Origin: Ulota crispa | Taxonomy: Eukaryota; Streptophyta; Bryopsida; Orthotrichales; Orthotrichaceae | NCBI GenBank assembly: GCA_963920765.1 | Contig: OY987244.1 | Coordinates: 23,912,358 to 23,976,357 of the forward strand | Reading direction: 5' to 3' | DNA: 64,000 nucleotides | Shown here: positions 20,171-64,000 of the stretch, one piece after another | How positions within the stretch are numbered: position 1 is the stretch's first letter | Layout: every line of letters begins with the position of its first letter | Notes under the pieces: generated by a model | The model's database searches: none | What the model was told of the DNA's origin: nothing | Seen by the model: only the letters and a program-made list of their open reading frames with translations | Position numbers and translations under genes: made by a program

Positions 20171-20307
20171 CTGGCACTACGATAGAGGCTCCATTGATGC
20201 TACTAGGAGAGGCTGCAAGGCAAGAAGGGATGTCGCGAGGAGCGATTGGAGCATCGAAGGAGATGGTACAAGGAAGGAGGGCGGATCGACAAGTTACCCG
20301 ACTCTAT

Positions 20308-34934: not shown

Positions 34935-36826
34935 AGTCTAGTTTATTTTATTTTATTTGGAAGTGCTGTGAAGCAAGGCCATTGAGGCTCTCATTTTCTA
35001 TGTTTTTGAAGTGTTGGTCCATCAATTGGCTCACAAAGGGGCAGATGGTGTTTTTTTAAATTTTGAAGTTGTTATGAGGGCAAGGCCCATTGAGGCTCTC
35101 ATTTTCTGTGTTTTTAGAGTGCTAGTTGATCAAGGGGCTCACAAGCGGCAGATGTTGCTTTTTTGTTTAAAATTTGGAAGTTGCTCTGAGGTTTGGCCCA
35201 TTGAGGCTCTCATTTTTCTTTGTTTTTGGAGTCTAGTCAATCAAGGGGCTCACAAGGGGTAGATGTTGCTTTCTTGTTTAAGATTTGGAAGTTATTGTGA
35301 GGTTTGGCCCTTCGTGGCTCTCATTTTCTGTGTTTTTAGAGTCTAATCGATGAAGGGCTCACAAGGGGTAGCAATTGTTTTTTTTTTTTAAAAAATTTGG
35401 AAGTGCTGTGAGGCAAGGCCCATCAAGGCTCTCATTTTCTGTGCTTTTGGAGTGTTGGTCTATTAAGGGGCTCACAAAGAGGCAGCAGGTGTGTTTAAAA
35501 AAAAAATGGAAGTGCTATGAGACAAGGCCCATTGGGGCTCTCATTTTTTATGTTTTCAGAGTGCTGGTTGATCAAAGGGCTCACAAGGGGGCAGCAAGTG
35601 TTTTTTTTTTTTAAAAAACTTCAAAGTACTGTGAAGCAAGGCCCATTGAGGCTCTCATTTTTCTTTGTTTTTGGAGTGCTAGTCCATCAATTGGCTCACA
35701 AGGAGGCAGATGGTGCTTTTTTTTTTTAATTTTGAAGTTGTTGTGAGGCCAAGGCTATCGAGGCTCTCATTTTCTATGTTTTCCATGTCTAGTCAATGAA
35801 GGGCTCACAAGGGGTAGGTTGTTGCTCTTTTGTTTAATATTTGGAAGTTGTTGTGAGGCATGGCCCATTGAGGCTCTCATTTTTCTTTGTTTTGGGAGAC
35901 TAGTCAATCAAGGGGTTCACAAGGGGGCAGCAGGTGTTTTAAAAAACAAATCAAAAGTGCTGTGAGGTTTGGCCCATTGAGGCTCTCTTTGTGTGTGCTT
36001 TCAAAGTGCTGGTTGGTCAAGGGGCTCACAAGGGGCAAATTGTTGTTTTTTTGTTTAAAATTTGGAAGTTGCTCTAAGGTTTGGCCCATCGAGGCTCTCA
36101 TTTTTCTTTGTTTTTGGAGTCTAGTCGATCAAGGGGTTCACAAGGGGTAGATGTTGCTTTTTTGTAAAAAATTTGCAAGTTGCTGTGAGGCATGGCCCTT
36201 TGTGGCTCTCATTTTTTGTGTTTCTAGAGTCTAATCAATGAAAGGCTCACAAGGGGTAGCGGTTGTTTTTTTTTAAAAAATTTGGAAGTACTATGAGGCA
36301 AGGCCCATTGAGGCTCTCATTTTCTGTGTTTTTGGAGTGTTGGTCTATTAAGGGGCTCACAAGGGGGCAGCAAGTGTTTTAAAAAAAAAAATTGGAAGTG
36401 TTGTGAGGCAAGGCCCATCGAGGCTCTCATTTTTTGTGTTCTCAGAGTCTAGACCATGAATTGGCTCACAAGAGGGCAGCGAGTGTGCTTTAAAATAAAA
36501 AATGGAAGTGCTATGAGGCAAGGCCATTGAGGCTCTCATTTCTATGTTCTCAGAGTCTGGTTGATCAAGGGGATCACAAGGGAGGCAGCGAGTATGTTTT
36601 AAAAAAAAAATTGGAAGTGTTGTGAGGCAAGGCCCATTGAGGCTCTCATTTTTCTTTGTTTTTGGAGTGCTGGTCCATCAATAGGCTCACAAGGGAGCAG
36701 CGGGTGTTTTAAAAAAAATTAGAAATGCTATGAGGTTTGGCCCATTGAGGCTCTCATTTAAGTGTTTTTGGAGTGCTGGTCCATCAATTGGCTCACAAGG
36801 GGGCAAATGGTGTTTTTTTGTAAAAA
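34935..36826. repeat. 111-bp tandem array, about 17 copies (left part)
   Basis: Each unit reads TTTGGAAGTTGCTGTGAGG, then CAAGGCCCATTGAGGCTCTC, ATTTTCTGTGTTTTTGGAGT, GCTGGTC(A/C)ATCAA, GGGGCTCACAAGGGG and a T-run. Landmark GGCTCTC positions 34,985, 35,093, 35,204, 35,315, 35,426, 35,535, 35,649 and 35,760 give a 108-114 bp spacing. The array stops at 36,826 and resumes in phase at 53,589. Confidence 0.9.
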
Positions 36827-37700
36827 GTTCAATGACACTAGCACACAAGCTTCAACTAGTGAGCTTCTGAGCTTCAAGCGTGAAGTCCTTGAGCTTGGAG
36901 CTTAATAACATAGAATGACAAGAATTTTTTTGTTTTTTTGTTTGTACTGATAGAGTTTGCAAAATTTTGAGGAAATAAATGTTGAAGATCATATGAGGGA
37001 CCTATTACCACAGATTGAAGCCTACACCCATGATTGTGTGTTATTATGATTTTTTTTTCAAATGGTTTGTGCGGAGGTTTTAGGGTCTAGGAGATGATGT
37101 GATAAAAATTCGACGAACCGTCCACAAACAAGGAAAGACAATTGGAGTTGACAACATTCCAAGAACTTGATAGAGATTAGGGTTAGAAAATCTGAAATAT
37201 AGCTTAATTAAAAGAGAGGGGGTTTATTAATGCTCAACCATTGCTCAAACAAACTTATATAACGCTAACTTGAAGGAATTCCTTACTAAGGAGGTGTAGC
37301 AAAAAGGAAGTACGTAACGAACAAGTTTGGCATGGGGAAAAAGGGTAGCAGCCTCTTGAGGAATTTGGACGAGGGTGATATGGTTTAGGGTTTGAATAAA
37401 GAGGGTGACAATAAAGTCAGAAATGCATGGTACACGGGTTTAGAGAACTGTCCAATGTGAGAGCAACCTTGTCAAAAACATGTCAGGGAACATTTCATTG
37501 AAGGACCAAGTTATCTAGTATAAAGAGAACAGTGGTAGAAGAGAATTTGTATCATAATCAATCACTTGCAGAAAGAGTCCAAAGGGATTTGCATCAAACA
37601 TTAATTGTGCCTAAATGTGATTTGCATTAACCAAGAACATGGCCAACTCAATAGGTAAAACATACGTACTAGTGCAGAATTTGAAGGTGACATCTACTCC
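36827..37700. other. Left end of the insertion, no gene seen
   Basis: Close to the end lies a cluster of GAGCTT words (36,855-36,905). The rest is AT-rich without coding signal, probably subterminal DNA and the 3' flank of the minus-strand transposase. Confidence 0.35.
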
Positions 37701-37721
37701 ATCACTTTGATTACCATAGTT

Positions 37722-40700
37722 TTAATTAGTAGAGTCTTTCACTTCATTGTAGCAGTAGCTAGGGGCATGAATGAACTTGTCCTTGAGCAAGTCCATCTTG
37801 CAAAAGTAACAGAAAAGGTAATACAAATGCTTGCAATTTACATAGTGCGGGCCATCACCAATTGCAGAAGCAGCCATGTTTGTAAAATCTGGGCAATTGC
37901 ATGTGGGAAAATTCCCAATAGTAATTTGGTAGACATTCTTTAGGTATTTAGTACCCAATTCAAGGGAAACTATTGCACCTAATCCTTGAAATGGAAGTAA
38001 AGTAATACCCAGAACCTTCTCCCTGACGTTAGCTGCACTCTCCCATTTATTTCGATGCTCTGGTGTAGGGACATTATTTAAACGTCAAATTGAGTAGTTG
38101 TTTCTTCTGGTTGGAAATGAGTCTAGATTGGATGGGGCTACTTCATTGTACAAAGTACATACAAAGTCACCTTCTGGGCGGAAAAGCTGGCGCGGAGATA
38201 GTATAGGTCTTTCTTGCAATCAAAATCTAGCATGCTGTAATAGAATTGATTCTTCCCTGATCAGTTTTGTACCACCTAAGATTGGCCATATTTCAGGAAC
38301 CTTCAGCCAATTAATAACCCATTTCTACTTTGAGCCTTTGACACAATATTCAATGTTGTCCAGATAAAACCAAAAATCTTTCATGATTTCACAACGTGAA
38401 CCATATTGCTCTTGTTGTCCACAATAAGTCAAGGCAAAAGTGCCCTTTGAACCTTTGGCTGTTTTAGCTGTACATTTCAAGTTGGTATTATGCTGCTGAG
38501 CGTGACATTTAGCGTGAGACTTGTAACTAATTCATGCAATATGCCACTTAGAGGTGTCACAATCGCTTTTGAGAGGTGCAGCGACATGATCAAGGCAATT
38601 GATCTGAGGTAATGAAATTTGCCCACCATGAACATCTGCATCAGGTAAAGTTGACCTTGTCTTTACGCGGGGCTATGAGAAATTAACCTTGTCTGGATGG
38701 TGAGAATCACCTTCATCACCAATTGGAATATTTGCTTTTCTTTTGCAGTTTCCAAATACTTCTTCCCCCTCTAGATGCGGAATGCGGGTCCCAAGGTTTG
38801 TTGCTCCTGGCATTGTGTTCAAAGCCTCTGCCAATTTTGTTGGGTCACCGCTTCTGTTTGCAGCTCATAGTCTCAATTCAATTTTGTCAGAGCCTTTGCC
38901 CAAGGCATGACCTTCAAGGTAAGCCTTGTAATTGGTCATGTGCATCCACGCTTGTATATTGTCATCGCAGATGGCATCAAAGAGATTGTTCCCAAGGTTA
39001 CCTAACATTTGAAGTCATTTATTATGGACTATCTTTGATAAGTTGCAGAGAGGAATATCAGGCAATTCCTCTAACGTCATTTTCTGCACAAGACAAAATT
39101 GAGTTATAATTAATAATACACATTAAACGATTAAAACAAAATGACAGCACAACATTTGCTGTCACCAAAACTTGAGAACCCAACCTCATGCAAGCAAATA
39201 AGTACATATCATAAAGTGAGCTAGTTGCAATAAGACAGAATCACATGACAATCATACATTCCAAAGTTTCCACATTTTCCATCGAGTAACGGGATCTCTC
39301 CTTAAACTACTAGCAGTTTTCACAAATACGGTGGGGCCCAAAATACATTCTTAGACGAGTGGTATTTCCAAGGTCTACCAACCCATCTCAATTCCAGAGA
39401 ATAACGTGCATAGGGAAATCCAAATCCACCCTATTAACCAAGAAAATGGTCCTACGACAATATAGCAACAAACATGCCATCCCAATTCCATCTCGACTGA
39501 ACTCTTCATACTCAAAAAACATCTCATATATGGGGAAGCCTAGTAATCATTCTTTGACAACAATGGTTTTAGACGTCCTCAAAACCAAACTGAAAACCAG
39601 TCCAATGTATGTAACACTGACCAATTCATAAATCCGGAAGGTATAACAAAAATAAAACATCTTATGGAAACTGAAGCAATAAATTAGTTTAACTTATCAA
39701 TAGGTAGCAACACCTACCTTCTGATATTGAATTATTAACAATGAGCAAAAAATGGCAATTTGCAAGGAGTCCAATGCATGAAAAAAAAAGCAAGGACAAC
39801 ACATACTATATGCATAAAGCCGCCCTATTGGCTATAGCAAAAGTGCCAAAATGCCAACCAATGATTGAAATGACATAGGGAATCTTCATTTGCTGCACCC
39901 AAAGACAACCACCTTGAATGTATGGCGAGGTAACGTGTTTTGGCGATCTCCATTCTCTTAGAATCTTTATACCCTTTGCATAGTTTTATACATTGTTGCT
40001 GCAATGCCTCCTTGATGTACTTTTGAGTGTGTTTAATCAATGAAGTGCTCCAGTAAAGGAGGCAGGTACTTTCTTGATCTTTCATGGGAATAGCTGAATT
40101 ACCAAACCCAAACACAATTTGGACAGCCTTCCAATTAGCCATTGCAGAGTCTGCCATGAATCCCTTGAAGTTAGAACTATCCACATTGTGACGAGCTAGA
40201 ACAACAATCATGAATCTCCAGAATTGAACCTAAATTTCCGTATCCTCTGATTGCATGTCACATGTAGCAATAGTCATAACGTTCTTGTAGCTTGCATCAT
40301 ACACATGATAGCCCACAGTTATTCAATCCTCCACTCGCTTCACATGGTCAAACATCATCTGTGATTGTTGTAAATCTCCACCAACTTGCATTCTCTTAAA
40401 TAAATCAACCCCACTACCAAGTCCAGTTGTTAACATTTTGAAGAGATACACTTTTTCCTTTCCTTGACCAGGGCATACACTGTCGTGGATGAGTTCAAAA
40501 GATGACAATTGCTTCATTAGCATTATGTTGTCAATAACCCCTCCACGATTATTAAAGCACAATGTCAACATTTTGTTGCGTATATTAGGGCTGCTGAGAT
40601 GCTAGAATCAATCTATGATCTTGTTCATCTCAATAATATCTAACACATTCTTCTTGCCGTCTCCAAAATGGTATAAACGACTTGACAAAAACTATTTTCC

Positions 40701-42250
40701 TGCTGCCAAAGTAATGGCAAAATTCATTGCTTTTGGAGTCTTCTCTACTCTGACAGCATTGAGGTTGTGTATCTCTTTAGCCAAATCCCTGTACATCCCT
40801 TTAGCAACGGGATGACTATGATTTCCTAAATAGATGGCAGCTCTGGTCATCCTCATGTTGTTACCGTAAACATAGTAAATATGGGCATCACATAAGGTCA
40901 GACAATTTGGAGGTGTTTTACAAACTTTATACAATATAGTTGAGTCCTTGGGCGAGACTTCTCCAACAACAAAGGCAAAAGTTGTGCACCCAGACTACTG
41001 TGTTTCATTTTTATGTCCCGCTCTAATTAAATAGTTCCAGGCTGGATTAGAGCATGCCAAATAGACACACAGACTACCTTGCGGAATTTCAAATCATTCA
41101 CATTGTGAATATTTGAAGTCACTAGCTTACAGCATAGGTGTTTGTCATAGCGCTTATCCATCCCATCCAACTTACGTGCAGCAAAAGCAGACGTGCCAAA
41201 ATAACACGAAGGTAATTCAAAGATTACATTCCCATTATATGATGGTGGCAAATAACTCACGTGGTAATTTTTAATAGTAGAATAATCTAGCAAGGGCAAT
41301 TCGCTCCTCGATTGCTACAAAACAGACAATTTTTTCAGGCACTCTAGAATACTTACATGCTTACTTGAATTTGGATGCCAAGGAGGGCGGGAGCCTTCTG
41401 ACTTACTGTTGTTCATTGACAACGTCATTTGCTCAGGGGTTCCACTATTGGAAGTCCACTTCAAGTTTGAAGAAGGGGTGATGCTACCTTGAATGATAAT
41501 GTTAGGGGTCTCTCCATTGAATTCACTAGAGAATTGTACAATGGGTACCAAATTCTCTACTTTCACTGCTTTCAGTGAATGTCTGATTGATTCCTTGAAT
41601 TCCATTTGGACATCAAGTGTTGGGGCCGATGCAAATGCCAAATACGGCATGTCAACATTGGACCCTTTAGGAATTCCAACTAGGCTTCTGAGCCGCTGCT
41701 GTAGCACTAATCAAGGGAAGACCATATACTTTGAAACTGCCAACATATAAGATCCACATGTCACCAGTGTCCACCAAATGTTTCATCAGTGGTAAACACT
41801 CAAGAAGTTTGCCAATAGAGGATCTTTTCTCTTCCTCTACATAAACAGATGTTTCTACAAATCAAAAGTGTACATGAAGAAGATGATTTGACACTGTTGC
41901 TTTACTGTGACTATTGAGCGGAAGAACTAACAGAATTTCATAATTGTCGGCACAAAGGAAAGCCATCTGACAAAATAGAGTAGCAAGTCCGATAGAACTC
42001 AATCCACTCTGGCAGAGTTCAAAGAGGATTGATTACGTAAGAACAAACCATGAGAGAAATGATTTGTAGTTGACAGCAACTGCATAACTTTCTGAGGGCA
42101 CAACTCTACTATACCAAGAGTAACGAGACTCATTGCAATCATGTCAAACTTAGAAGTACCCAAGGTTCCTCTATCAGGAGGAAACCGTTGAAGGAACTCA
42201 TCATATTAAATGCAAAGCCGCGTAGCCAACGTCATTGAATATTATCATAT
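37722..42250 (-). pseudogene. Mutator-like transposase with C-terminal SWIM zinc finger
   Basis: Read on minus, recognisable blocks run in order. They are YNGNVIFELPSCYFG, KLDGMDKRYDKHLCCKLVTS (41,299-41,027), MTRAAIYLGNHSHPVAKGMYRDLAKEI (40,934-40,692), and VYDASYKNVMTIATCDMQSE then FMADSAMANWKAVQI, ESTCLLYWSTSLIKHT (about 40,320-39,825). Last is a SWIM finger at 37,958-37,722 with CxC and CxH (residues 20/22 and 42/44 of that segment). Core-then-SWIM is the order in MULE transposases. Candidate catalytic acids lie in ATCDMQ and FMADSAM. Weakly open DNA continues to about 42,250. The blocks lie in several frames with stops, so it is degraded. It points away from the plus-strand gene, so the two are divergent. 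Confidence 0.68.
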
Positions 42251-43007
42251 ATTTATTGATTTTAGCGTAGATCAAATCTAGGCTATAAGTGCTTCATAAA
42301 AAATGCAAGTATAGGCTCTACAAAATAACTTGAATGTACCAGGGTAAATCAAAATGTCACGGACGACATGATTCACAAAATGAGAAAGGGCTGATGCGAA
42401 ACCATAGTTATGATATGAGAATATAATGTTTATAAGACCCATCAGTTTAACAAAAAACATGTTGGGCAGTGATATGGGATGATTTACAAAATCAAGAACA
42501 TCTCAAAGATGTCCCTACATGTATGGACTGACAGATTCAATAGGATTCCCTAACAATCAGCACTACGTCATACCAGAACAACCGTTGCAATTTTGGATTC
42601 CTTAAATGAGCTAATCACTTCTTGGGAAATAGGTAAGATTTGAACTTGTGGTTGTTTTGAGGTAGGGAGCAATGACAAACCTGATATTTGGATTTCATCC
42701 CATTCTTGTATCATATGCTAGAATTATAATCCATATTATTTGGACTAAAATCCACATTCAATGGAAAGTGATCATTTTGAAGAATTTCTTCATTGTATTT
42801 GTGATGTAATATGTACAATTTGAATTGATAGGGTAAATCTGAACCACCTTTATTGGTGATTGAGAACGACTCCAACGGCCTGATCCAACATTAGAGTGTA
42901 AGTATCAAATACTAGGATTGGCAAGGGAGCTTATGCTATCCACAGAGATGGCAAGGTAGTACCGTGTCACATGCTGTTGATAGCAATTCAAAGTACATTT
43001 TACCAAA
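42251..43007. promoter_or_regulatory. Divergent intergenic region between the transposase and the plus-strand gene
   Basis: About 0.75 kb of AT-rich, non-coding DNA separates the 5' side of the minus-strand transposase from the first plausible plus-strand exon. By position it should hold both promoters. I cannot name specific elements. Confidence 0.3.
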
Positions 43008-45740
43008 TTGCATAATGTCAGTCATATAAGAAAGACAACTTCGAGAAGTATGAAGACACAAATGCGAGAGTTATCAAAGATTCTTGAGAACTATGATAGC
43101 GCTCAGGACACTTTGTCTATTGGAGGTACTTTCAGTATTAGTGAGGGCGAGATTGAAGGTGTGAGATCATATGTTACTGCAACATCAAATATTAGGAATT
43201 GCCCACATCCTATTTCTGGCATTTTGCAATTGGCAAAGCAGGTCTATTTACTTTACAACTTCTTAGTTCAAGTGTCTTGTATTCATTGTTGCAAGCATTG
43301 ATTGGTAAACAATGTAGAGTTAGAGATATAGTTAAGGTTTTCAATATATAGTAACGAACCAAACTGTTCTTTGGTAGACAGTGGTATCCAAGCAATAAAA
43401 GCATAGCAATACAAAAAGTGACATCTCGATTATTGTGGATCTTTGCAAAATTAATAGAAAATTGTAGAAGTAGCTAATTCCATTAGTATTGTTGATCCTA
43501 ACAAGCACAAACCATAGATGTAAGGAAGAAGACACTAAATGGATACTTATATTAGAAAATATGTTATTGGAGATTAACAACATCCAAAAAATGCAAACCA
43601 TGACAAATTCAGCTGCACGTATGTATTTTGCAAACTTTGCTCTTGTCATTCCCCAAAACTATAAAGACGCAAGGCTTTTACAATAGCAAAAAGTTTCTTA
43701 GAATGAGACCTCCAAAGATTAAGCTGGTCAATTTTTGGGTGATCCCTATAAAGAGCTTTAATTTGAATTAACAAAGAGGGAAGGGAGCAGTAGCCACTTT
43801 TAGGGTGTAGCAAACGCCTTCTTTTCTTTCAACCTAAATTGCCGCCTTCTAGTGCGAGTTTTAGAGAGGAATGCCGCGGCATCGACGCTGCCTCTCGTGC
43901 AGTTCGTTGTACATGGTTCCTTTGTCAATTTCAGGAAACTCATGCAGCCAATACATCTGCTCTCTAGTATTTGTTTAGAGGTCGTGCATACAAAAATTGG
44001 CAAGGTTGCGTAGGTTTTGTAATTTGAATCCTTTGCCTAATGTTGGAGCACCGAACAGTCAATTTTTCTTATGAGGTTGGACGCACACACTGTATGCTTC
44101 CGTTAATTTCTCTTGGTTTGATTGTCGCAGTGTTAGCGCAGCATTTGAATGCATTAGTCAAAGTACTTGTCACCTTCCACTTGCAGATTAATTGCAAAAA
44201 CCCTACTCCTTGGATACACGTCTTTTTTGTTTAGGGTTTTTGGGCGGCATTCCTAAATAGCAATGGGTCCAAACTTTAGTGTCGTAGCTAATATTTGCAA
44301 TTGTGCTCTATTGTGCAAGTGAATTCGAGTAAATTGACAATGTCTCAACGACGGCGCCTGCGTATCAAAGAGAACATGGAGTCAAAGTTGTTTGAGGATT
44401 GCTTGACCCATGGCAAACAAAAACTAGCAAGAAACAAGGAATGAATTAAATGAACACTTGTGATTGCAATAAGAATTTTGCAATGGGTCAAGAGAACAAT
44501 GATTGAGGATTTTCACTTGAAGATTATTGCAGCAGAACTTTGTCCAATCATCTTAACAAATGAACTATTGGAGTTGCAACATAAGACCAGAACAACTTTG
44601 CAATATGCATGTTCATGTCAATATTTGCAATCACATATTGTAAATTGGGTAGAGTGAAACGGTATTGAGAAGCCTCCAGTCTCATGTAAATCTTAATAGT
44701 TCATAATCCATTATGTAGTGAAGACACATTTAGGAGATTCCATGATTTTTGGATTCACCAAAAGGTCTCAAAGTTTTATCTTAAATGTTTAGGTCATTGC
44801 CTTTAACCAGTGATGAGGATTTCTTCTCCACAAAAAGATCCATTGCCGGCAAAGGCAGATGGAAGGGCGTTAACGGCATGGTGTGATATTTGACATAAAC
44901 CTTGGTTGAAAGATTAGTGCTTAACTGATGCACAAAGGAGCTGTATCAATGGCAATGGCCTGATCAGCGTAGGATTTGCTATTGTGATGGTCAGTAATTT
45001 TTGGAGTTTGTTTGCTCAAGCAAAAATGACAATAGTCTGAGCTTTACCTAAATGTCATTCATCGGCAAGAAAGATGGCGTGAAGCAATCACACTTGTTTC
45101 CATTGCAAGCCCATGCAATTTTTTTGGTTGACCAAGTTATTGAAGTATTTTAATTTGTCGTTGCAACCTTTAGGGGCCACCACAATAGAGTCTTTGTGGA
45201 CTTAGTTATTTGGTAGCTCTATTTGTAGAAATTTAGCTTTAGTTTAAAATGACATTAGTACCAAATTTCAGATTTTAGCAAATACAATTAAATCATGATC
45301 AGTGTGATGCTATCTTAACTCCATGAATCAATTCAAAAAAGCAAGCCTATTCCACCTTCTGTGGGACCTGGAGGGAGCGCTATTTTGAACACTCCTGAAG
45401 CTCATAACCCCTGTAGAGTGGACTCTTTATTGGGAAGTAGTAGTCAAAGAAATCATGCAAGTGATGACAACATCGAATACTTGGCGGCCCCAAAAGAGGT
45501 AAAGAATTGATGTAGCTGCTAACGTGAGGATCGTTGATAAAACATTAAAGTGAAGAGAATTTTCAATTGAGCAGCGGTTATAGTGTTTGTAATTGATTGG
45601 CAGAAATAGGCTGCTATGGTGAGCTAAGGACATAGCTGCAGGTCTTGTGACAAGAGACAAGCCAGGAGGACTTGGGTGTGCATGATGTTTGCAGAGATGG
45701 TAGCCCTTAGCTAGAGATTTGTGCAGATGGTGACGATGGG
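43008..45740 (+). pseudogene. 5' region of the plus-strand ParB/methyltransferase-like gene; poorly defined exons
   Basis: The segment 43,008-43,250 encodes a peptide with RSMKTQMRELSKILENYD and GEIEGVRSYVTAT and reads like an exon. At 44,460-44,657 there is RILQWVKRTMIEDFHLKIIA. Between them I see only short frames. Placement in the downstream gene rests on strand and proximity only. Confidence 0.3.
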
Positions 45741-46562
45741 ATGTTGACATTAGCAGCCGCTATTGACGAGGAAGCATTGTTGATGGAGAATGATCTTTGG
45801 CGGCGACAAAAAGTGAATACTGTTGCTACTATCACCAGCTTAAGGATGAAACCAAAATCCCTATTTCAACTCCGGGTTCTTCTCATCAGACTTGTGCCTA
45901 TGCCGATTGTCAGGCCAACGTTAGCTTCTGACCTCACTAATTTGGAGCACAAGTTTGTTCATGGTTATTAAAAGGGAGCATCCGTGTTTTATCTAAGCAC
46001 AACAAATGAGGTAGGAGAGACTTCTGAGTTTACGCTAGCCAAAATGGCATCATGGGGATTGCTTTGGCAGGCCGAGAATGAAAGAATCAAGGAACTCATT
46101 GGTGGGATTAAAGAACCAAAGTTCATGTTAAATTTGAAATTCTATGTGTGCAATGGTAACCACTGCAAAATTGCGTGTATGAACGACATTCAGAGACTCT
46201 TGACCAATCCTGGCATATATCTATTGACTAGATTATTCTAGAGACAAAGGGGCGCAACAAAAATGTCATGCACGTCATGCATGACATCAACAAGTAAATT
46301 ATGTACTAACCTAATGCGCTGTTTGATTTGAAGATTTCGATGCTCAGTCTCTTTCAAAGCTTAAGCTATCTTGTAGTTTGATGACACTTTGCACAATGAC
46401 TCAATGAACAGGCAAACAGAGGAGTCCCATGTGAAGACAAATTTGGTGCATACCCTTTACCGCATTCAAAAATATAGATCGCTTCCAATTGAGAAGTTTG
46501 TGGAGCTATTGCACCCTAGAGAGTATGAGCGGTGTAAACTTTCCACCGTATGCAAGACCTAG
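45741..46562 (+). pseudogene. ParB-like domain segment of the plus-strand gene
   Basis: The peptide from 45,850 reads LVPMPIVRPTLASDL, NLEHKFVHGY, a stop (TAA), then KGASVFYLSTTNEVG. After NLKFYVCNGNHCKIACMND (46,139-46,190) a one-frame shift leads to ILETKGRNKNVMHVMHDINK. A further exon (46,431-46,562) reads NLVHTLYRIQKYRSLPIEKF and VELLHPREYERC before a TAG. The VCxGNHxxxA core resembles the (D)GxxR motif of ParB/sulfiredoxin-fold domains. In bacteria and phages such a domain is often fused to DNA methylases, which fits the methyltransferase-like exons downstream. Conserved Arg is replaced by Cys and the frame is broken, so this copy should be inactive. Confidence 0.42.
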
Positions 46563-46712
46563 TACACTACGCCAACAGAAGTACTCATGTCATTCATATT
46601 ACGGGTATGTGAATAAATAAACTTCATTGTTTTCATTGACTTTTGTTGAGCTTTGGTTATTGGTCTACAATGAAGTGTATGGTGAAATTAGTGCAATTTT
46701 TGTGTCAATCAC

Positions 46713-47066
46713 ATGAATGCGCTATCAGTGTCGCAGGTGCCGTGGATGATGCCTCCATTTGGCCATCATTTGCTAGCAATGGTTAATAGTAGGCTACTTT
46801 CATTCTCGGCACCTGCCGTTTGTTGTCAGGAGCTAGCTTCTATTTTGAAATTCATTAGGAATTTTTTAGACGGTTCAGTAAAATCCATAAACCAAACCGG
46901 TGACTTGTCTTCTACTCATATGACTCTTGATGTAAAAAACCATTTGGAATCATTGGTTAGAAATCAACAAGTAGGTACTCCACCTAACACGGACGTGGGC
47001 AGCACCCAATCCCCCCTCGTCAGCAAGGGTGTTCCTACATGTACCATGATCCGTGCCGGATGCTGA
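46713..47066 (+). CDS. Open segment of the plus-strand gene, 117 residues, function unknown
   Basis: It contains QVPWMMPPFGHHLLAMVNSR and LASILKFIRNFLDGSV, then a Thr/Ser/Pro-rich tail. A TTGCAG-like acceptor context (GTGTCGCAG/GTGCCG) lies at its start. Probably an exon linking the ParB-like part to the hairpin-bearing intron; no family recognised. Confidence 0.35.
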   Translation: MNALSVSQVPWMMPPFGHHLLAMVNSRLLSFSAPAVCCQELASILKFIRNFLDGSVKSINQTGDLSSTHMTLDVKNHLESLVRNQQVGTPPNTDVGSTQSPLVSKGVPTCTMIRAGC

Positions 47067-47470
47067 GTAATGGAATCCCTTTGAGTTGCGCTAATGGGTT
47101 GAGGAGATTATGAGAGGAAACATCAAAGCGCAAGATACACATTGTAAAGTTCTAGAGGTCAACCAAGCATACCTTGGGCACCCACACTTGTTAGAGGAGA
47201 GGTCACATTTGCAAGTGTCTGAATGTACATGGAGCGCGTGATGCGGGAGATGGCGGCAGGAATCCAGATTTTGGCACTGGTACTTTAAATTCCACCTGCA
47301 TCCACCTCAACTGTGTTTACTCCATTTACTCAAATCAACTTTTCAAGGCAATGTTGTAAAGAATGATGATTACTTGATGTAACATAAAAGCCAAGGGAAA
47401 GCATATGAGAGTCCTCAACAAATGAGAGTACAAGCCATTACGTCTGTGTTGCACTGCTCATGTGGGGCGG

Positions 47471-47818
47471 GTGAGGGCACCATGACAAGTGCCCTTGCCG
47501 ACAAGGGCACTCGTCATGGTGCCCTCACCTGCGCCACGCATGCTTGAGATGTGTTTGTGTGGCGCAAGTGAGGGCACCTTAATGAGTGCCCTTGCCGGCA
47601 AGGGCACTTGTCATGGTGCCCTCACCAGCGCCCTTCAGCGCTTCACGGGGGCGTGTGGCACGGAGGAGGGCACTATGGCAAGTGCCCTTGCCGGGGAGGG
47701 CACTTGTCATGATGCCCTCACTCGTGCTACACATTTATACATCAAGCGCAGGTTGCTCGTGTGAGGGCGCCATGATGGTTGCCCCCAAATGCAAGGGCAG
47801 CCATCATGGTGCCCTCAC
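47471..47818. repeat. Four successive ~58-bp palindromes
   Basis: Palindromes lie at 47,471-47,528, 47,561-47,632, about 47,655-47,729 and 47,761-47,818. Their common arm is GTGAGGGCACCATGACAAGT followed by GCCCTTGCC, centred on GCCGGC or a variant. Arms pair almost perfectly, giving G+C-rich hairpins far more stable than anything nearby. They differ by a few, often paired, changes. They lie within the presumed intron region of the plus-strand gene. Confidence 0.9.
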
Positions 47819-48176
47819 TTGCGCCTCTTGCACAATAATTTGTACAATCAAAGCTGGATTATTTCTAGGTTCCAATAGCAGGCATGCTGACCTTGCAAAG
47901 TTATTTGTAAGCTTCTATTAACGCGCACTTGGCTTTGCAAGTGGCCTCGGTATGGGTGCTGGCATAAGTGCTCTCCCTTGAGAGGACAACTACGGTGATA
48001 TCATCTATTACGCCAATGTCATATTCATAGGTGACTCAATGCTTCATACGGCTTGTTCTCTTAATTCATGACCTAGTTATTAAAAACACAATGATTGCAG
48101 GTGCCGTTGATAGTCCTCTTCACTGTCTTTGCAAGTTCTCAAATAATAGACTCTATAATGGTTATTTGAATGTATT

Positions 48177-49142
48177 GCAGATGGTGTCCCTTGGGGCATG
48201 GATGGGGGCACCATCTCGAATGCCCTTGTTGGCGAGGATGCTGGAGGGAAACCTACTCCCGCATGGCCTGCTCTTGATGCCATTGTTAAGTTCACAACTT
48301 CTGGGACTTCTCGCGGTTTTCAGCAGCTTGTAGAGGCCACTTGCTAGCAACGACAATGAGGAAGGTCCTAGCAACCATGAGAATCTCCATCACTTTTGTT
48401 AAATGTTTCTATTCCATTGGACTGTATGTCATGCCGGTAGTGCGGATGACGGCACCACCATAAGCGCTCTTGCTAGCAAGGGTGCTTGTGGTGGTGCCGT
48501 CATCCGCACTAGAGTTGTCTTGTTGAACATGTTTTGGGGTTTGGTTGTCGTGTTGTCTATCTGACGTCTGATGTTGCACATGACAAGTGTCAAGTATGAG
48601 TGACAATTTTGTCAAAAAACGCCCTTTTTAACAGTTGAGATAATTATTTCAATCTACTTTAAATATGATTCAAATTGTAGATTTTAATAAATGTATATAA
48701 AATTGAGATACTTTAATAAAATGAAACATTAATATGCCAAGATTAGAAATAGAAAATGCTTTATTTAAAATTCAACCTTAAAGTTGGGCTTTATTAGATA
48801 GACGGAGGGTCTCTTGTCCGTCTATGACGTCAAGTTTGTCAAGTTGTTGTCATGTTGGGTAAAACAACCATGATCCGCACCATCGGCATGACGTACAGTT
48901 GGTGGGAACAGAAACATTTAACAAAAGTGATTGAGATTCTCACGGTTGCTAGGACCTCCCTCATTGTTGTTGCTAGCAAGTGGCCTCTACAAGTTGCTAA
49001 AAATTGCAGGAAGTCCCAAAAGTCGTGAACATAACAATGGCATCAAGAGCAAGCCACGCGGGAGTAGGCTTTCCCCAGCATTGTTGCCGACAAGGGCGTT
49101 TGAGATGGTGCCTTTGTCCGTGCCCTAAGGGCCACCATCTGC
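48177..49142. mobile_element. Foldback element, ~275-bp inverted arms, 417-bp loop
   Basis: The left arm (48,177-48,450) and right arm (48,868-49,142) are reverse complements with scattered mismatches. Landmarks are GATGGTGTCCCTTGGGGCA versus its complement near 49,125, GTAGAGGCCACTTGCTAGCA versus 48,974, and GTTAAATGTTTCTATTCC versus 48,915. The arms start with CAGATGGTG. No target duplication is clear. The arm tip carries the same GGGCACCAT...GCCCTTG words as the palindromes 400 bp upstream, so the two features are related. Confidence 0.82.
48438..48511. repeat. 74-bp near-perfect palindrome
   Basis: The arm TAGTGCGGATGACGGCACCA is followed by CCATAAGCGCTCTTGCTAGC, and the complement returns to CCGCACTA, centred near 48,474. 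It straddles the inner end of the left foldback arm. Confidence 0.88.
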
Positions 49143-49564
49143 ACCAATTTTGTGTTGCTGACTATTAATTCTAGAGAGTTTCTTGTAATGGATTTCTTGA
49201 AGCTGAGCTTCATTGGACTCTAAACTGGTTGAATATGTCCCTTTCCTGAAAAGGAAATATAGATTGTGTAAGTGAGGTTGCAGAATCTTGAAGGTTGTGC
49301 TCAGTCATCAAACCCCTAAGTTGCTTTGATGTTGTCTAGGTTCTTTGTTTCACCTGTTGTATCACACAAATCTTGGGAATTCAGGCATTTTTTTTGGATT
49401 TTGTATTTGCTGGAAGGGACATTGTTGTGGGCTTGTGTCACCGGGCTTTGGCATTCTGTCTTGTCGTCTCTTGCTGGCAGTGCTGGTTTGTTTAGCAACT
49501 TTTCTGGGTGTCTTCTAGAGATTGTAGTGAGTTTATAAATTATGTCTGACATTTACGAATTTAC

Positions 49565-51768
49565 TTGATTCTTATGTTCGTACAACAAGAATTATCTGCT
49601 GCATCAAACCTGGCTCTTCGGAAATACATTAAGACAAGTGCAATGGAAGATCGGACAAACGTTGGTAGTGTAGATGCCATGCATGAGGGTTTGAAAGAAA
49701 AACACACAAACCTATCTCAAAAGATGACAAAACTAGTGGCTGTCGCTAATCTAGCAAACAGCATTGAATTTCTAGAGGAGGTGATTTTCACTTCACTAAA
49801 GTATGAATGAAGTTTTTTTAATGTTGTGCTATTATTATGGCACTAACCCTGTCCTGTTTCTTTAAAGCGTTATAGTTGCAACGATGTGCTGGAGATGACA
49901 TTTGACAAACTTCAGATTGTTGCTACCTGCAACTCCTCAGCCATTCATAGAACAAAATTTCTGATGTGGTGGAATTCATCAATTCCATCTCAAGAATCCA
50001 ATCATTTTCCGCCAAAACTTGGGGTTGACGACCCACTTAAACTTTTTCTGAACAAATGTGTGTGGTATACAAGGGTAAGTATGCTCATCATTTGGAGAAC
50101 TTACACACACTGTTGTTATAATAGAGTGGTATGGATTGGTGGATTAATGGCCTTTTCAATTTCACTAAATTCTAAGGACTTGGGTATTCTGTCAATAGAT
50201 TGAAGATGTTGCTGTTGAGTACTTTGACAATGTTATTAAGAAGGATAGTCTTGAAATGAACATGAATGTACCTCTTGAACTAGAAACTCTCCTTGAGTAT
50301 ATCAAGGGCTGGCATTGAAAGATCTGGGATCATGGCTTTAATGGTTATCTGAAAGGGGCCGGGAATTTTAAAAGGGGCGATTCCTTCAAAGCATTTGACT
50401 GCTCAAAGCAAGCTGTGCAGCTTGTCCTCTTTCAGTAAGACTGTCTGTGATAAAGGTCTCCATTCAAATTTTAGTCATGTTTCAGTGCTGGCCATTGTGT
50501 GCTGGCCATTGTTTTTTTGTAAGTTTGTTCGCATTCTTATCATTCTATTCTTGTTGCAAATGTCAACAACAACTTACTAGTACATGTCATTTGATTTGAA
50601 TGCAATTTGCTATATCTTAATTGGTAATACAATTTGCTCATATGACATCACCATCTCTCAAATCCTCCGTGCTTGACAGTCAAGTTTAATTGATTGGTTA
50701 TTGTTTAATTGAAATGACCAAAGTAATTGCTGACTGAACTAAATATTGATACAATGGTCCATGAGAACCGAGGTTTGTTTACATGAAGTTTGTCCTAGTG
50801 TCTTTGGTTACTACTCGGTTCTTTTTATAAAAAAAAATTGAACTGATGTTGTGGAGCCATAATGTCGCATACTTTAACGGCTTCTAGTATCCATTGTAAT
50901 ATTGCCTGTTGAATACTTGATAATGCAATTTGTGTGATTAGTTCTCAATGAGCTGCCGAATCTGTTATCCATTTCCTGTCATTAATATCTATGCTCTCTA
51001 TACATCCTCTTTTTTAGGTACTTCAAGCATGTACTCTTAGCAAAGAGGGCGATCTCTCAAGAGCAACTTCCTCCATTTCTGTCTACTTGGCTAGATTCCA
51101 GCTCTTCGGACAGCATGTTCACTCCTACTCAGTAATGAAACTACACCACCGCCCAACTTGCTAATGGTGGCTGGTATTTGGACTGCAGCTTAGAGTTCAC
51201 TCATCCTTTTGAAGTGTCATTGCGCAAATCTCTAGAGGGATTAGGTGAAGTTGATCTTCAGGGGAAAGATTTTGCTGAAATGGACGACAATGCAAAAGCT
51301 AAGGCAATTGCTAGAAGGGTTGCTGCTGACAAGAAAAAAGAGGACAAAGAGGTCGCTGTTTGGGCTCAAAAAGCTTCCAAGAAATCTGAGAAGCTAGCTA
51401 AGGCAACAAAGAAAGCTGCAGAGAAGGACTTTACAGGGAAACACAGAGGTAAAGGGCGGCAGGTTCTTGACGTTTGTAGAGGTTCTCCAGTATTTGCTCC
51501 AGCAGCAAGCCCGGCGCCGCGGGGACCAAAACTAAAGTTTGTGGTCAATGACTTGAGCAACAAAGATGAGGCCGCTCTCCAAAGCACAAACATTATTTCC
51601 TTGGGCGACGACGACAATACTCAAATTCAAGAAGCAATCTTCAATTTGTCAATCAACATTGTTGTGGAAGACATGGAGACTAAAGCCCTGAACTCATATA
51701 CCACAGTGAAGAATTTTTTGAAGAAGGTGGTCTTTCATCCACCTTATTTGTTGACTTTCTTGATTTGA
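49565..51768 (+). pseudogene. Central exons of the plus-strand gene (charged linker before the methyltransferase-like part)
   Basis: The segments read QQELSAASNLALRKYIKTSA (49,586-49,780); ATCNSSAIHRTKFLMWWNSS and GVDDPLKLFLNKCVWYTR (49,886-50,075); EDVAVEYFDNVIKKDSLEM with GYLKGAGNFKRGDSFKAFD (50,202-50,430, one TGA); and 51,178-51,768. The last begins after broken text near 51,130 and has an Ala/Lys-rich helical stretch (KAKAIARRVAADKKKEDKEV), then FAPAASPAPRGPKLKFVVND. Several ends look like splice sites. No known domain is seen. The Lys/Ala stretch may be a coiled or DNA-contacting linker. Confidence 0.45.
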
Positions 51769-51885
51769 TGTTCATTTAAATCTCATTGTTTGGTTATTCA
51801 TGTTTTATTCAAGTTTTGAAACGTGCAATACGCTAATCTTTTCCATGTTTTGCTGATTTTGCAGGTTTCTGGTGGAAAAGATTAA

Positions 51886-52985
51886 ATGTACATGGGGGAG
51901 CATACTAATGATATTGTTGTGGATTTGGTCAAAGTGGATTGCCCAAAGAACCTTCCAATCTCTGGTGTCTTTGTGACAGCCACAGATGTTCTAGATTGGA
52001 ACAAAGACAAGGAATACAAATTGCTCAATGCAGCTTTTGCCTTTTCAGAGAAGGAATTGCACAATGACAGTGCTCTTTTTGTTGTTCACTCATTCTGCAA
52101 AGACTCTAGAGACAATATAGCAGGTCTTTGCAAAACCTATGGCATGGTGATAAAGAAGGTGTGGAATGGGATTAATAGGTTGCATCTTACCTCAGCAATT
52201 GACCCTACAACCACGGTGAGACTTTGTCATCTGTAGTTCTCGAATTATGCTCAAATTGATTTTGTTTTTTTGTTTTTTTTCTTACTCTTGTCTCTTCTTG
52301 TTTGATTTCATAGACACAAAAGTTCGAGGTCACTTTGCTCGTAAAAGATTTTGGCGACGATGAGCAGTCTAAGTTTATGATTTGCACTTCAGCAACTATG
52401 GAGAAGATTGGCTTAGAAGTTGGAACGGATGAGTGTTTACTCAACCTTGTCGAAAGGGATGTTATCTCAATGAATGGAACAAAACCTTGGAGGGGACCAC
52501 GGCAGAAGGGTCTGAGATTTTTCCAGTACCTAATTGAAGCAGCCACTATTGCAGGCAATGTCATTGTAGATTGCATGGCTGCAGTTGGTTAGTACCGTCT
52601 TCTCCTTCTCTTCACCCCCATTTCAACTTCTTTGCACTAGCACCATATATTTACTGAAACTCCTGCAATCTTTATCAGGTTTGGCTATCACTACTTGTCA
52701 CGGGATTGGCCGGCACATTCTTGCATTAGAGGCTAACAATGACATCTACGCTAGTATTTTGAAACCTGTGATTTGATCCATCCCTGCATCGGAGCGCAAA
52801 GATGTAGCACCAGTACCCGCTACTTAGGACCCACCCGCTACTTCGGTTGTAACGAGGAAGTTTGTGCGTAAAACAAAGCAGAGTAAGTAAGTTTCCCATT
52901 CTCTTTGTCCTTCTGCAGCTTTCTATGTTGCAAGATTGTCTTACTTTATTCACTGTTTCTTGGTTTGCAGTTGTTCACAAATGAG
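51886..52985 (+). pseudogene. Beta-class DNA methyltransferase-like (N4/N6 type) exons
   Basis: Exon a (51,886-52,215) has DIVVDLVKVDCPKNLP at about 51,910-51,955, where prokaryotic N4-cytosine/N6-adenine methylases have motif IV (DLxxxDPPY). Exon b (52,312-52,587) has PWRGPRQKGLRFFQYLIEAA then GNVIVDCMAAVG. A GT/AG intron (52,588-52,679) joins it to LAITTCHGIGRHILALEANN. That string parallels motifs X and I and the acidic strand of beta-class enzymes (GDxVLDPFxGSG, then GRxxxGIExD). Motif IV before motif I is the beta-class order. DPPY is DCPK and DPFAGSG is DCMAAVG, so catalysis is unlikely in this copy. Later text (52,700-52,985) is Pro/Thr/Lys-rich with TGA and TAG stops. A fold-level match would settle it. 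Confidence 0.48.
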
Positions 52986-53588
52986 GAAGAGGAGAGAATC
53001 CTCTCTTGCTAGAAGTGCAGACATCTAGGTTAGCCCAGACAAGTGCTATTTCATGCCGTCTTATGCAATGAATTTGGCCGATGCCTATGTCGCTTCTAGT
53101 CCCACCATGTCAGCCACTTGTGTCCCTCATTACTCTTGTGGTGTTTTTCAATATTTGGATGTTGCAGCTACTGTTGGAGATGAAATTGATGGGGCGCCTA
53201 GTTCAACCGATTCGTCTAGAGAGACTACTATGTCCTAGACTCACCACCCTTTTGAGATTTTGTATGGTTGCCTTTTTTGTAATGGATTGCTATTATTCCT
53301 CTACCGTTTATACTACATAGATGGTCCCGTCTTGCGCAACATGCTCTTTTGCATTCCCCCATTTTCATATACAATGACTGTCCTTTCAGTAGTTGTATGT
53401 CTTGATCTTATTTTCTTTATAATTTTGTTTACTAATCCCTAAACCCTAAACCATTTCTCCTTATAGTATGAACATATTCAGCCACAATTATAGGTGCCCA
53501 TGTGACTATTTTTGGTATAAGGGTTTATGGCTCACATGCTCACATGCTCACAAGCGCCCGCTCACACTCTTGCCCCCTAGCAACCCTA
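52986..53588. other. 3' region of the plus-strand gene and right end of the insertion
   Basis: Degenerate coding-like text (PMSLLVPPCQPLVSLITLVV near 53,085-53,150) gives way to AT-rich DNA. CCCTAAACCCTAAACC, a telomere-like doublet, lies at 53,437-53,452. Three CTCACATG/CTCACA words (53,525-53,560) mark the terminal 70 bp. Confidence 0.4.
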
Positions 53589-53885
53589 TAAAAAATTTGC
53601 AAGTTGCTGTGAAGCATGGCCCTTCGTGGCTCTCATTTTCTGTGTTTTCAAAGTCTAATTGATGAAGGGCTCACAAGGGATAGCGATTGTTTTAAAAATA
53701 AAATTGGAAGTGCTGTGAGACAAGGCCCATTGAGGCTCTCATTTTCTGTGTTTTCAGAGTGCTAGTCAATAAAAGGGGCTCACAAGGGGCAACAAGTGTT
53801 TTTTTTTTTAAATTTGGAAGTTGCTATGGAGGCCAAGGCTCATGGATGCCCCTTTTTTCAATTTTTGGTGTTGCTAGTCAATCCT
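53589..53885. repeat. 111-bp tandem array resumes (right part, about 2.5 copies)
   Basis: Same unit and orientation as 34,935-36,826: TTTGCAAGTTGCTGTGAAGC, GGCTCTCATTTTCTGTGTTT, GGGCTCACAAGGG. The first base after the insertion continues the unit where the left part stopped. The last copy is strongly diverged. Confidence 0.88.
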
Positions 53886-54368
53886 AGGGGCTTAGAGGTG
53901 GGATGGATTCTTTGTTCTTCAAGTTGGCATTGATATCATAGAGAATTGACTGCTGCGAGGCCATGTTCATTGTTGACAATGGGATTTCCATGAATGGTAT
54001 TACTTGGTGCAAGAGCGCTGTTGTCTTGAGTAGGTGAAGTCATTGATTCATTTTGGCTAGTCATTGATTCATTTAGGATAGTCATATGACTGGCCGTAGT
54101 CATTGATTCACTTCAAAGGGCAGTCATATGACTTGGTGTAGTCATTGCTTCATTTTGGCCACCAACTTTTGAATTGTGGTTAGTCACATCTGTAGGTTGC
54201 TTAAACATTTGCTGACCTCCTATAGTAAGTATTTAGGCAAGCTACAGTGACTTTGTTGGATTGCTTTGTCTAAAGCCTATACCATTTGATATCTTGTCAC
54301 ATTAAGGGAATTGTATTTAAAAGGCTTGTGTACAAAGGTCATCCAAGTTTCTAAGTGGGACGTTGCAG
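53886..54368. promoter_or_regulatory. Upstream region of the outer Transposase_24-like gene with dyads
   Basis: There is no coding signal. Dyads TGACTGGCCGTAGTCA (54,087-54,102) and TGACTTGGTGTAGTCA (54,129-54,144), plus half-sites AGTCATTGATTC repeated at about 54,035-54,110, sit a few hundred bases upstream of the gene. An acceptor-like GACGTTGCAG ends the region. By position this is the promoter and/or first intron. Confidence 0.45.
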
Positions 54369-60041: not shown

Positions 60042-61830
60042 CTGTAGTATGACATGGAATCATGGGCTCTTGGGAATGGAGATACATATTGCCATGTTTC
60101 AAAAAATGCCATTTTGAAAAACTGAACATTCTTATAAGGTACGCATCACATTCTATCTTCATTACAGTCAAGTTTGCTTGCTTTGTAGTCATGAAGGTGT
60201 TGTGATATTCACTTCCCTTCTCTCTATAGTTATCCTTATACCCAATACATAGTACTTGTTGTTGCCGTAAGCAATGCTCTCATTTGTGGTAAGTACTTCT
60301 AGTTGATTTATTTCTCTGTTTTACTCTAACTTTAGTCATAGAAAAAATTTTGGATTGACATAAGGTGCAAGGGCGTGTTAGAAATTACTTATGCTTGACA
60401 AAATGTTACATTTTTTACACTTGCAAAGCAATTTGTGTTTGGAAGAGGAGGTGCTTACCCTATACCCGAGTGCCTACTATGTGTTGGTGTGATTCTTGTA
60501 AAGCATTGGAGCTATCAGAGGGAAGCTTCAATAAATATTTACTGGTCAATGAGTGGCATAAGACGTGTTGGAGATGTTGACAACCGCCATTCTAACTAGC
60601 TACAAAAGTAACTCCAAACAACAACATTCTCCTCATTCGAGCGGCCCTTTTATGCAAATAAATATTTTTAGTTCTTGTTCTAGAAATATCCAAATTGGAA
60701 TGTGAAACAAGAATTCCTTGGTGTTTTAAGTTTGCTGAATTCATGTTCATAGTTTGTATAGCACTAAACTCATACTCATTCAGAAATAATGCAGAACAAT
60801 TTCCTTTAGCAAATCATAACAAACTGAAATTAATGAGGGTGGATTTCATTCATTGAATCAGGGTTGTAAAGTACAACGTGTATGGATTACTTTGTTAGTC
60901 AATGTTATGGTTACTTTTGAAGTATTTAAATTTCCATCCTATAAACCTGTAAGCCTTGAATTCCCTAACATGATGGTTGTAATGACTTCACTGCAAACTT
61001 GAATTATAAAAGAGTGATGCAAATTATTTGTTATCTTACACCTGGATTTGCATGATTTCATAGGCCTGTCAATTGTAGCTATGCAACCATGACTAAATGT
61101 GGGTGCTGGCTACTTACCCTCATTCTATGTCAGTTCAAAGAGCAAATTTCACATCATGGGAGATCTCGCACAGATTACCAGACATTTCTCAGCACACAAG
61201 ATATTCTCTTATGATGACGTTCCTTTCAAGTTACCCATCACCTCCATACCAATATCCTTATCTTTAACCCAGTATGGAAGTTAGACTTCTGTGTACATTG
61301 TCATTGTAATTTTGTTTATAATTCTCTAAACTTGCTTGGAATTAATGTAATGCACTTTTTAGTTGAGGTCAAATTTTTGAGGATCTTCACTACACGAGGT
61401 TGCTTTGTATGATCGTTGTCTCCCCTTCAACACTTAACATAAACCCTCATTACACGCAGCACTTGGTGATTGTGGAAGAAGGAGAGGATTTGGATATCGG
61501 CATACGCTCTTCCTCATTTTCAGTGCCCGCTCAGCCGCAAGTACCCTGACATCTTTGCCTTTTTTGAATGAATTCACACTACTTCTAACCCTATGCACAT
61601 AATATTGTAATTCCATTGTGAAGGTTGCTAATTTCAAGTTTTATTTCATGTTACATCTTCTAATTCACTCCATCTGCTGCTTTGTTATTAGAGGTTCATG
61701 TTGCAATGGGCTCTACTGCAGAATATGCGGAGAATATAGCAAACAATGTCTTCCTTACTTTTGAGTCCAAAATATCCTCAAAGATTCTAAAAAGATTCTT
61801 AAATATTCTTGAAGATTCCAAAAAGATTCT
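60042..61830. other. AT-rich DNA; one Cys-rich short open frame
   Basis: Mostly nothing recognisable. The frame at 60,365-60,580 (plus) has CLTKCYIFYTCKAICVWKRR and CWCDSCKALELSEG, with Cys spacing that could be a zinc-binding remnant and a possible link to the broken gene just upstream. The remaining short frames look random. Confidence 0.3.
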
Positions 61831-61833
61831 CTA

Positions 61834-61864
61834 AGATCCTCAAAGATTCCAAGAGAATCTCAAA
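61834..61864 (+). repeat. 31-bp direct repeat, first copy, in an AAGATTC-rich tract
   Basis: The 31 bases from AGATCCTCAAAGATTCCAAG onward are identical to 63,910-63,940. Both sit in ~100-bp tracts of short repeats of the type (T/C)(C/T)AAAGATTC (61,765-61,885 and 63,885-63,985). They could be direct terminal repeats of a small element or a dispersed simple repeat. Confidence 0.6.
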
Positions 61865-61889
61865 GATTCTCAAATATTCATGATGTTGT

Positions 61890-63660: not shown

Positions 63661-63909
63661 AGATAATAGTTTCAACTTAGAGAGGAAATTATTTCTGGTT
63701 TGAAAGGAAACTCTTATTTCCTTGTTAATTGTTTTAAGTACTTAAAGAACTGTCAAATTTTTTAACCAATAATTTCAATAAATTTTCTCCTTTACTATGT
63801 AAAAGCAAAAATTTGCTCAAGGATACATTACATATCCTTATTTATTATTAAAAACACTAAAGTTCAGTTTCCAAGTTGCGACACTTGAAGATTCCAAAGA
63901 GATTTTCAA

Positions 63910-63940
63910 AGATCCTCAAAGATTCCAAGAGAATCTCAAA
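63910..63940 (+). repeat. 31-bp direct repeat, second copy
   Basis: Identical to 61,834-61,864. Followed 44 bp later by two telomere-like CCCTAAA units (63,984-63,997) at the window edge. Confidence 0.6.
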
Positions 63941-64000
63941 TTTTCTCAAAGATTCTAAAAATATTCTCAAATATTCTTAAAGACCCTAAACCCTAAACCT

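Follow-up and report, generated by a model that had tools for sequence, protein, structure and literature searches.

Why should a transposon of a land plant carry, on the strand opposite to its transposase gene, a second gene whose motifs recall the DNA methyltransferases of bacteria and phages? This question is raised by a 64,000-nt stretch of the Ulota crispa genome (GCA_963920765.1, contig OY987244.1, positions 23,912,358-23,976,357, forward strand; hereafter the window, whose own numbering is used throughout), in which a Mutator-like element (MULE) with a divergent accessory gene was found. An earlier, sequence-only reading of positions 43008..52985 had proposed that a plant DNA transposon acquired a prokaryotic-type ParB-methylase module and keeps it divergent to a SWIM/Mutator-like transposase, perhaps to mark or protect the DNA of the element. 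Comparison of the copies within the 274.8-Mb assembly leaves next to no doubt about the architecture, a two-gene plant MULE family with a divergent transposase and an accessory gene. The latter appears from its sequence to be a resident gene rather than chance cargo, one that travelled with the transposase and that selection maintained as the family diversified.

The borders of the element were fixed by copy-to-copy similarity, by the target-site duplication (TSD) and by an interrupted tandem array, which place them at 36,830 and 53,588; the span proposed earlier thus holds the quoted motifs and is too narrow in extent. The window element splits an array of ~110-bp units, and when the element and one duplication were deleted in silico, bases 2-499 of 500 were 78.8% identical to uninterrupted units of the array in an alignment that ran across the junction. 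Six copies have their right end in common, at window 53,585-53,587, and the similarity on the left starts at 36,835-36,858 in three. Among 11 copies scanned, the four with both end anchors are 14.5-16.8 kb long and have 9-bp duplications that match at 9/9, 9/9, 8/9 and 8/9 bases, while an extra right-end anchor within the window element showed no duplication (2/9 bases). GAGC-type repeats lie near both ends, and a search of the window element for a long terminal inverted repeat (TIR) found none, only short and imperfect inverted similarity.

Membership among the MULEs is indicated by these 9-bp duplications in four copies, since a table in the accessible part of PMC6446971 gives 8-11, typically 9, bp for the TSD of MULEs. 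The transposase gene, which spans 37.7-41.9 kb on the minus strand, contains a SWIM (CxC...CxH) finger by pattern, for which the match to Pfam PF04434 is weak (expectation value (E) 0.074, below the cut-off). The joined exon pieces, which form an incomplete gene model, matched no MULE transposase profile at E<=10, and the best other profile was Vsr (E 0.066). Exon T3 is one that we take to be DDE-like, and the exon at 40695..40994 presumably holds a zinc-finger-like segment.

The accessory gene, composed of multiple exons, can be followed between ~45.7 kb and ~52.9 kb on the plus strand. The motifs pointed out in the sequence-only reading were located where it had put them, in plausible intron-bearing frames: VCNGNHCKIA at ~46.15 kb, DLVKVDCPK at ~51.93 kb, GNVIVDCMAAVG at ~52.57 kb and GRHILALEAN at ~52.72 kb, the latter two being separated by an intron at 52,588-52,678. 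The motifs are no accident of the window, as many copies of this genome hold these exons in an unchanged order. The window copy is indeed degenerate, as had been suspected, with several in-frame stops. Copy-to-copy similarity continues through the stretch between the two genes, and the 5' end of the accessory gene is therefore approximate. Relatives outside this genome were not found in the protein collection (7996, 2 and 650 candidates scored), in viral contigs compared with one sequence and two alignments, or in prokaryote genome contigs; these collections hold no plant genome set, and the result therefore allows no inference about other plants.

The pairing of the two genes, which the sequence-only reading had drawn from the window, proved to be recurrent across the family, both genes lying between the same TSD-flanked ends. 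All 10 copies fetched as 20-kb stretches contain exons of the accessory gene, and seven also contain the divergent transposase; among the other three, two (C9 copies) have a divergent transposase farther out and one (c6_19791) has none among the matches listed. Linkage was counted genome-wide among the matches listed, with the random expectation taken from 200 placements, for 65 methyltransferase places (among 172 matches), 129 places of the exon with the GNHR motif (141 matches, 12 of them merged as pieces of the same copy) and 83 transposase places (among 292 matches; 80 recognised via exon T3 and 3 via another piece). A divergent GNHR exon was observed within 40 kb of 73 of the 83 transposase places (random mean 0.94, maximum 4), and a GNHR exon lies upstream, on the same strand and within 40 kb, of 47 of the 65 places of the methyltransferase motif IV exon (random mean 0.73, maximum 4). 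A narrower first count, in which 6 of the weaker methyltransferase places and 14 weak GNHR places were not included, gave 47/59 and 71/83, with median distances of 3.9 kb between methyltransferase and GNHR exons and 5.0 kb between transposase and GNHR exons. Moreover, a diverged query led to methyltransferase places of which 15 were chosen; in 11 of these a GNHR exon lies upstream at 2.4-7.4 kb, and for 4 there is none among the matches listed. A divergent transposase is missing from the matches listed for 55 of the 129 GNHR places, which, with 83 transposase places drawn from among 292 matches, is not to be read as absence of the transposase. As a separate observation, 13 of the 129 GNHR places lie less than 300 kb from contig ends, where 3.1 would be expected by length (for example C7:52342, C10:37762 and C6:113544), and the two near-end places that were read (L067, L068) have the form VWDGNHR.

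Purifying selection was assessed by Nei-Gojobori counts in five pairs of copies (four independent) for each part of the accessory gene and in four pairs for the transposase. The ratio of nonsynonymous to synonymous differences (pN/pS) was 0.27-0.48 in the GNHR exons, 0.32-0.42 in the middle region and 0.34-0.44 in the methyltransferase exons, as compared with 0.23-0.40 in the transposase; wrong-frame controls on the same stretches gave 0.59-1.95, and the in-frame Fisher tests gave p <= 2.7e-5. In the close pair c2_16702/c3_4172, omega was 0.37-0.59 for the accessory gene and 0.47 for the transposase. Within one and the same pair of copies, the synonymous distances of both genes agree within ~2-fold. 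These values show purifying selection on both genes, and the accessory gene was thus under selection during the spread of the family. A function of the accessory gene is supported, without any given activity being pointed to.

What the C-terminal part of the protein may be was addressed by profile comparison. The window copy alone gave weak matches, mostly on the segment of motifs X and I (PF01555, E 0.076; PHROG 18293, E 2.5e-4; CcrM, 0.048; two DpnA-type PDB chains, ~0.2). An alignment (A1) of 17 of the 24 prepared methyltransferase rows, from which 7 with X stretches or missing pieces were omitted, yielded as its four best PDB matches 5hfj (1.7e-6), 5hek (2e-6), CcrM (8.1e-6) and MboIIA (0.031), all of which are DNA methyltransferases of the beta class; two further matches, at 0.79 and 2.8, fell on a reductase and a putative modification methylase, respectively. 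In addition, PF01555 was matched at E<=1 by 9 of the 17 rows (best 2.1e-5), and PHROG 6952, a DNA methyltransferase family, at E<=0.1 by 13 of the 17. Direct comparison by hhalign with nine phage ParB-methyltransferases gave a probability of 93.9, E 1.6e-7 and a score of 54.5 over 192 columns, whereas none of 60 column shuffles scored above 18.7 and the reversed alignment reached 19.3. By profile, the C-terminal domain is thus homologous to beta-class N4/N6 DNA methyltransferases, in which motif IV precedes motif I, and the earlier proposal of a beta-class methyltransferase-like domain holds at the level of the fold.

The hhalign alignment places the plant DCPKN on the phage DPPYN, and it is here that the family departs from the catalytic signature. 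Motif IV was read in 44 of the 47 copies with methyltransferase DNA (L047 and L048 were unreadable and L089 was left out), and none of the 44 has (D/N/S)PP(Y/F/W), the motif IV signature of an active N4/N6 amino-methyltransferase; the DPPY or NPPY residues for which the sequence-only reading proposed to examine other copies are therefore lacking in those read. The motif is mostly D-x-P-E/K: of 42 copies, 35 have D and 7 have N at position 1, none has P at position 2, 27 have P at position 3, and at position 4 there are 36 with E or K and 1 with an aromatic residue. Two further copies have DCSE and DVPK. Motif I is partly retained, as a VVDCTA-like stretch followed by GR..LALE.D, and the motif I region and the acidic residue of motif II are largely kept in the aligned rows.

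One alternative, in line with the sequence-only reading, is an active DNA N4/N6 methyltransferase, which would bind the DNA of its own element and mark it. The beta-class homology, the motif order and the retention of the motif I region and the acidic motif II residue speak for this explanation, and the same suggestion has been made for the Sola1 element of Ectocarpus in the accessible part of PMC12477816; the replaced tetrapeptide in all 44 copies read makes it rather unlikely. A selected, conserved domain that lacks the catalytic tetrapeptide could also belong to a methyltransferase-like subunit which needs a partner, or which acts on RNA or protein. METTL14 is an inactive partner subunit of this kind. 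Against such a subunit, general domain scans, beyond which no dedicated search was made, brought no second methyltransferase gene of the element to light, and we consider a subunit of this kind unlikely, somewhat more so than an active enzyme.

The N-terminal domain is marked by the box D/N-G-N-H-R-x-x-A-W, of whose residues, among 29 rows, NH is conserved 26 times, G 22 times and R 16 times. This box resembles the GxxR boxes of ParB and was set against the phage ParB GHTR in a weak hhalign alignment; in addition, the domain is N-terminal to the methyltransferase domain, in the same order as in the phage fusions. Profile tests were conducted with an alignment (A2) of 14 of the 29 rows, with the first row shortened; L057, L064 and L066 were omitted as frameshifted or truncated and others to thin the set. 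The domain gave no ParB profile in PDB, Pfam or NCBIfam, and 1 of the 14 rows matched a ParB-like PHROG (E 0.23). Comparison with 12 phage ParB domains by hhalign scored 14.5, which shuffled controls also attain (mean 11.7, maximum 19.7), and a single-sequence AlphaFold model of exon A, with a mean predicted local distance difference test (pLDDT) score of 36.6, was unusable. A clear ParB identity from the motif was dropped after the profile tests; the assignment to ParB (PF02195) made by the sequence-only reading is not backed by sequence statistics, and what agrees with it is the GNHR motif and the N-terminal position, from which a ParB identity would be an evenly balanced guess.

For the capture of a ready-made prokaryotic ParB-methylase module, as had been envisaged, support is likewise lacking. 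The plant methyltransferase profile scored 21-34 bits with six stand-alone phage methyltransferases and from 25 bits to below zero with nine fused ones, a comparison which is biased, as the stand-alone enzymes had been selected for their likeness to the plant query. The scores being on the whole higher with stand-alone enzymes, capture of the fused module is unsupported.

A resident accessory gene whose product acts on the DNA of the element is the explanation that we prefer as a whole, tentatively and with its likelihood falling just short of even. The accessory protein would bind the element's own DNA through its N-terminal GNHR domain, for which the subterminal GAGC-type repeats are candidate binding sites, and the methyltransferase-like domain, with its catalytic tetrapeptide replaced, might still bind S-adenosylmethionine or DNA. 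By analogy with VANC of the Arabidopsis VANDAL elements, DNA bound or shielded in this manner could permit transcription or movement of the element despite host silencing; we know of no methyltransferase-like domain in VANC. This bind-or-shield mechanism is possible, though a little less likely than the explanation as a whole. More specific, and somewhat unlikely in all its parts, is the proposal of a transposon-borne pseudo-methyltransferase: a beta-class enzyme whose catalysis has been altered would now bind DNA or sense S-adenosylmethionine, recognise element DNA and block host silencing, and selection would have preserved it through deep divergence.

Several points weigh against the preferred explanation. 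The partner is not among the matches listed for 10 of the 83 transposase and 18 of the 65 methyltransferase places, and the GNHR domain appears to be without a statistical tie to any DNA-binding fold. Omega is higher in the nearest pairs, reaching 0.63 in the methyltransferase exons (c4_8916/c9_16154), as expected from the decay of copies after insertion; weaker constraint would look alike. Furthermore, selection is silent on which activity is retained, and the altered motif IV is compatible with activity.

Passive carriage of a functionless host or bacterial fragment, of the Pack-MULE type, would accord with the gene fragments often found in MULEs (PMC6446971, in its accessible part) and with the stops in many of the copies read, the window's included; it is made very improbable by a linkage kept over saturated synonymous divergence and by pN/pS values which, in four independent pairs, are well below 1 and similar to those of the transposase. 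That a host gene and a transposon became neighbours by chance, for which nothing speaks beyond the single window, is refuted by the 73 of 83 listed places, as against 0.9 at random, and by the location of both genes between the same TSD-flanked ends. Both were rejected because of the linkage and the purifying selection.

The closest likeness is found in the ParB-methyltransferase accessory proteins of algal DNA transposons described in the accessible part of PMC12477816, such as that of Sola1-1_Ec32 from Ectocarpus (1104 amino acids), where red and green algal cases are cited as well. A ParB-like and an N4/N6 methyltransferase domain are likewise combined there in one long protein, encoded opposite to the transposase in a large DNA transposon. 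The Ulota crispa family differs in that its carrier is a MULE-type element with 9-bp TSD and a SWIM-like transposase, its host is a plant and its motif IV is non-canonical, the algal set being compared by description only. VANDAL/Hiun MULEs of Arabidopsis, with vanB and vanC, resemble it in their short, degenerate or absent TIRs and in carrying accessory genes, one of which acts there on the DNA methylation state; an anti-silencing accessory protein of MULEs is thus already known (PMC6446971, PMC5735166, in their accessible parts). The DNA methyltransferase (DNMT) retrotransposons of dinoflagellates and charophytes likewise carry a DNA methyltransferase under purifying selection, although theirs are C5-cytosine enzymes of another class that are able to methylate CG de novo (PMC5890265, accessible part).

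Among prokaryotic proteins, the fusions of ParB_N and N6_N4_Mtase (Streptococcus phage Javan128 QBX23397; B. cereus Bce_0392) share the domain order and the methyltransferase homology, and a bacterial ParB-methylase with nicking activity has been described (PMC5512222, accessible part). Unlike the plant family, all nine complete phage fusions checked have DPPY; they are 388-470 amino acids long without the long middle region, and their ParB is not significantly alignable with the plant domain.

The MULE survey PMC6446971 reports accessory open reading frames (ORFs), including SET in an oomycete group, and the words 'ParB' and 'methyltransferase' are absent from its accessible part, as they are from the review PMC13317346. 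No title or abstract reporting a ParB- or methyltransferase-like gene in a MULE or a bryophyte was found in the openly licensed literature. Within that literature, as far as searched, the MULE carrier, the land plant host and the altered motif IV are new. Most weight among these results falls on the linkage and selection, traced in one genome across many copies, and on a catalytic motif that is altered wherever it was read. They tie a MULE-type transposon of a land plant to the kind of ParB-methyltransferase accessory protein that has been printed for algal elements; the replaced catalytic motif makes the printed idea of self-methylation directly testable and suggests binding, rather than methylation, as a possible conserved role.

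Table 1. Features of the two-gene element and its insertion site, in window coordinates.
Feature	Position	Strand	Remarks
Whole MULE element, 16,759 bp	36830..53588	.	9-bp TSD; end of copy-to-copy similarity at or near both borders; in silico excision restores the array
Left target-site duplication TAAAAAGTT	36821..36829	.	8/9 bases equal to right duplication
Right target-site duplication TAAAAAATT	53589..53597	.	9-bp duplications at the same ends in three other copies
Left terminus CAATGACACTAGC...	36830..36900	.	GAGC-containing subterminal repeats
Right terminus ...CTAGCAACCCTA	53510..53588	.	GCTC-containing subterminal repeats; inverted similarity to left end short and imperfect
~110-bp tandem array, insertion target, left flank	34955..36829	.	
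Same ~110-bp tandem array resumed, right flank	53598..53997	.	
Transposase exon with SWIM-like finger (CNC...VNCKH)	37725..38084	-	Aligned in 4/10 fetched copies; finger pattern seen in 2 of those copies besides the window
Transposase exon T3 (GFMADSAMANW)	39828..40229	-	
Transposase exon T2	40326..40601	-	
Transposase exon with presumed zinc-finger-like segment	40695..40994	-	
Transposase upstream coding pieces T0a, T0b, T0c	41030..41861	-	
Accessory exon A, GNHR-motif (ParB-like?) domain	45711..46238	+	One in-frame stop
Accessory exon B	46377..46559	+	
Inverted repeats/palindromes in exon B-C intron	47459..49143 (47,459-47,830; 48,176-48,452 vs 48,868-49,143)	.	Related stretches in other copies
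Accessory exon C	49583..49780	+	
Accessory exon D	49868..50074	+	
Accessory exon E	50199..50434	+	One in-frame stop
Accessory exon F/G, middle region	51018..51726	+	Two adjacent in-frame stops
Accessory exon H, methyltransferase motif IV region (DCPKN)	51865..52215	+	
Accessory exon I, motif X plus motif I, first half (VDCMAAVG)	52314..52587	+	
Accessory exon J, motif I/II (GRHILALEAN) and tail	52679..52882	+	

Neither Rfam families (at the gathering threshold) nor tRNA genes were found in the window. Minus-strand ORFs at 7961-12198 are taken by us to resemble a CACTA/En-Spm tnp2-type transposase, and distant direct repeats occupy 198-1099 and 9828-10741. A degenerate ~148-bp satellite forms two oppositely oriented arrays (13262-19656 and 21888-29150), which surround a GC-richer segment at 20-22 kb with a strong switch of GC skew, and a near-perfect 20-bp minisatellite (98% matches) is located between both arms at 20307-20465. 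Outside the element, a short repeat is present at 61763-61879 and 63884-63990; three fetched 20-kb stretches (c9_2757, c5_15960 and c9_16154) contain it as longer arrays.

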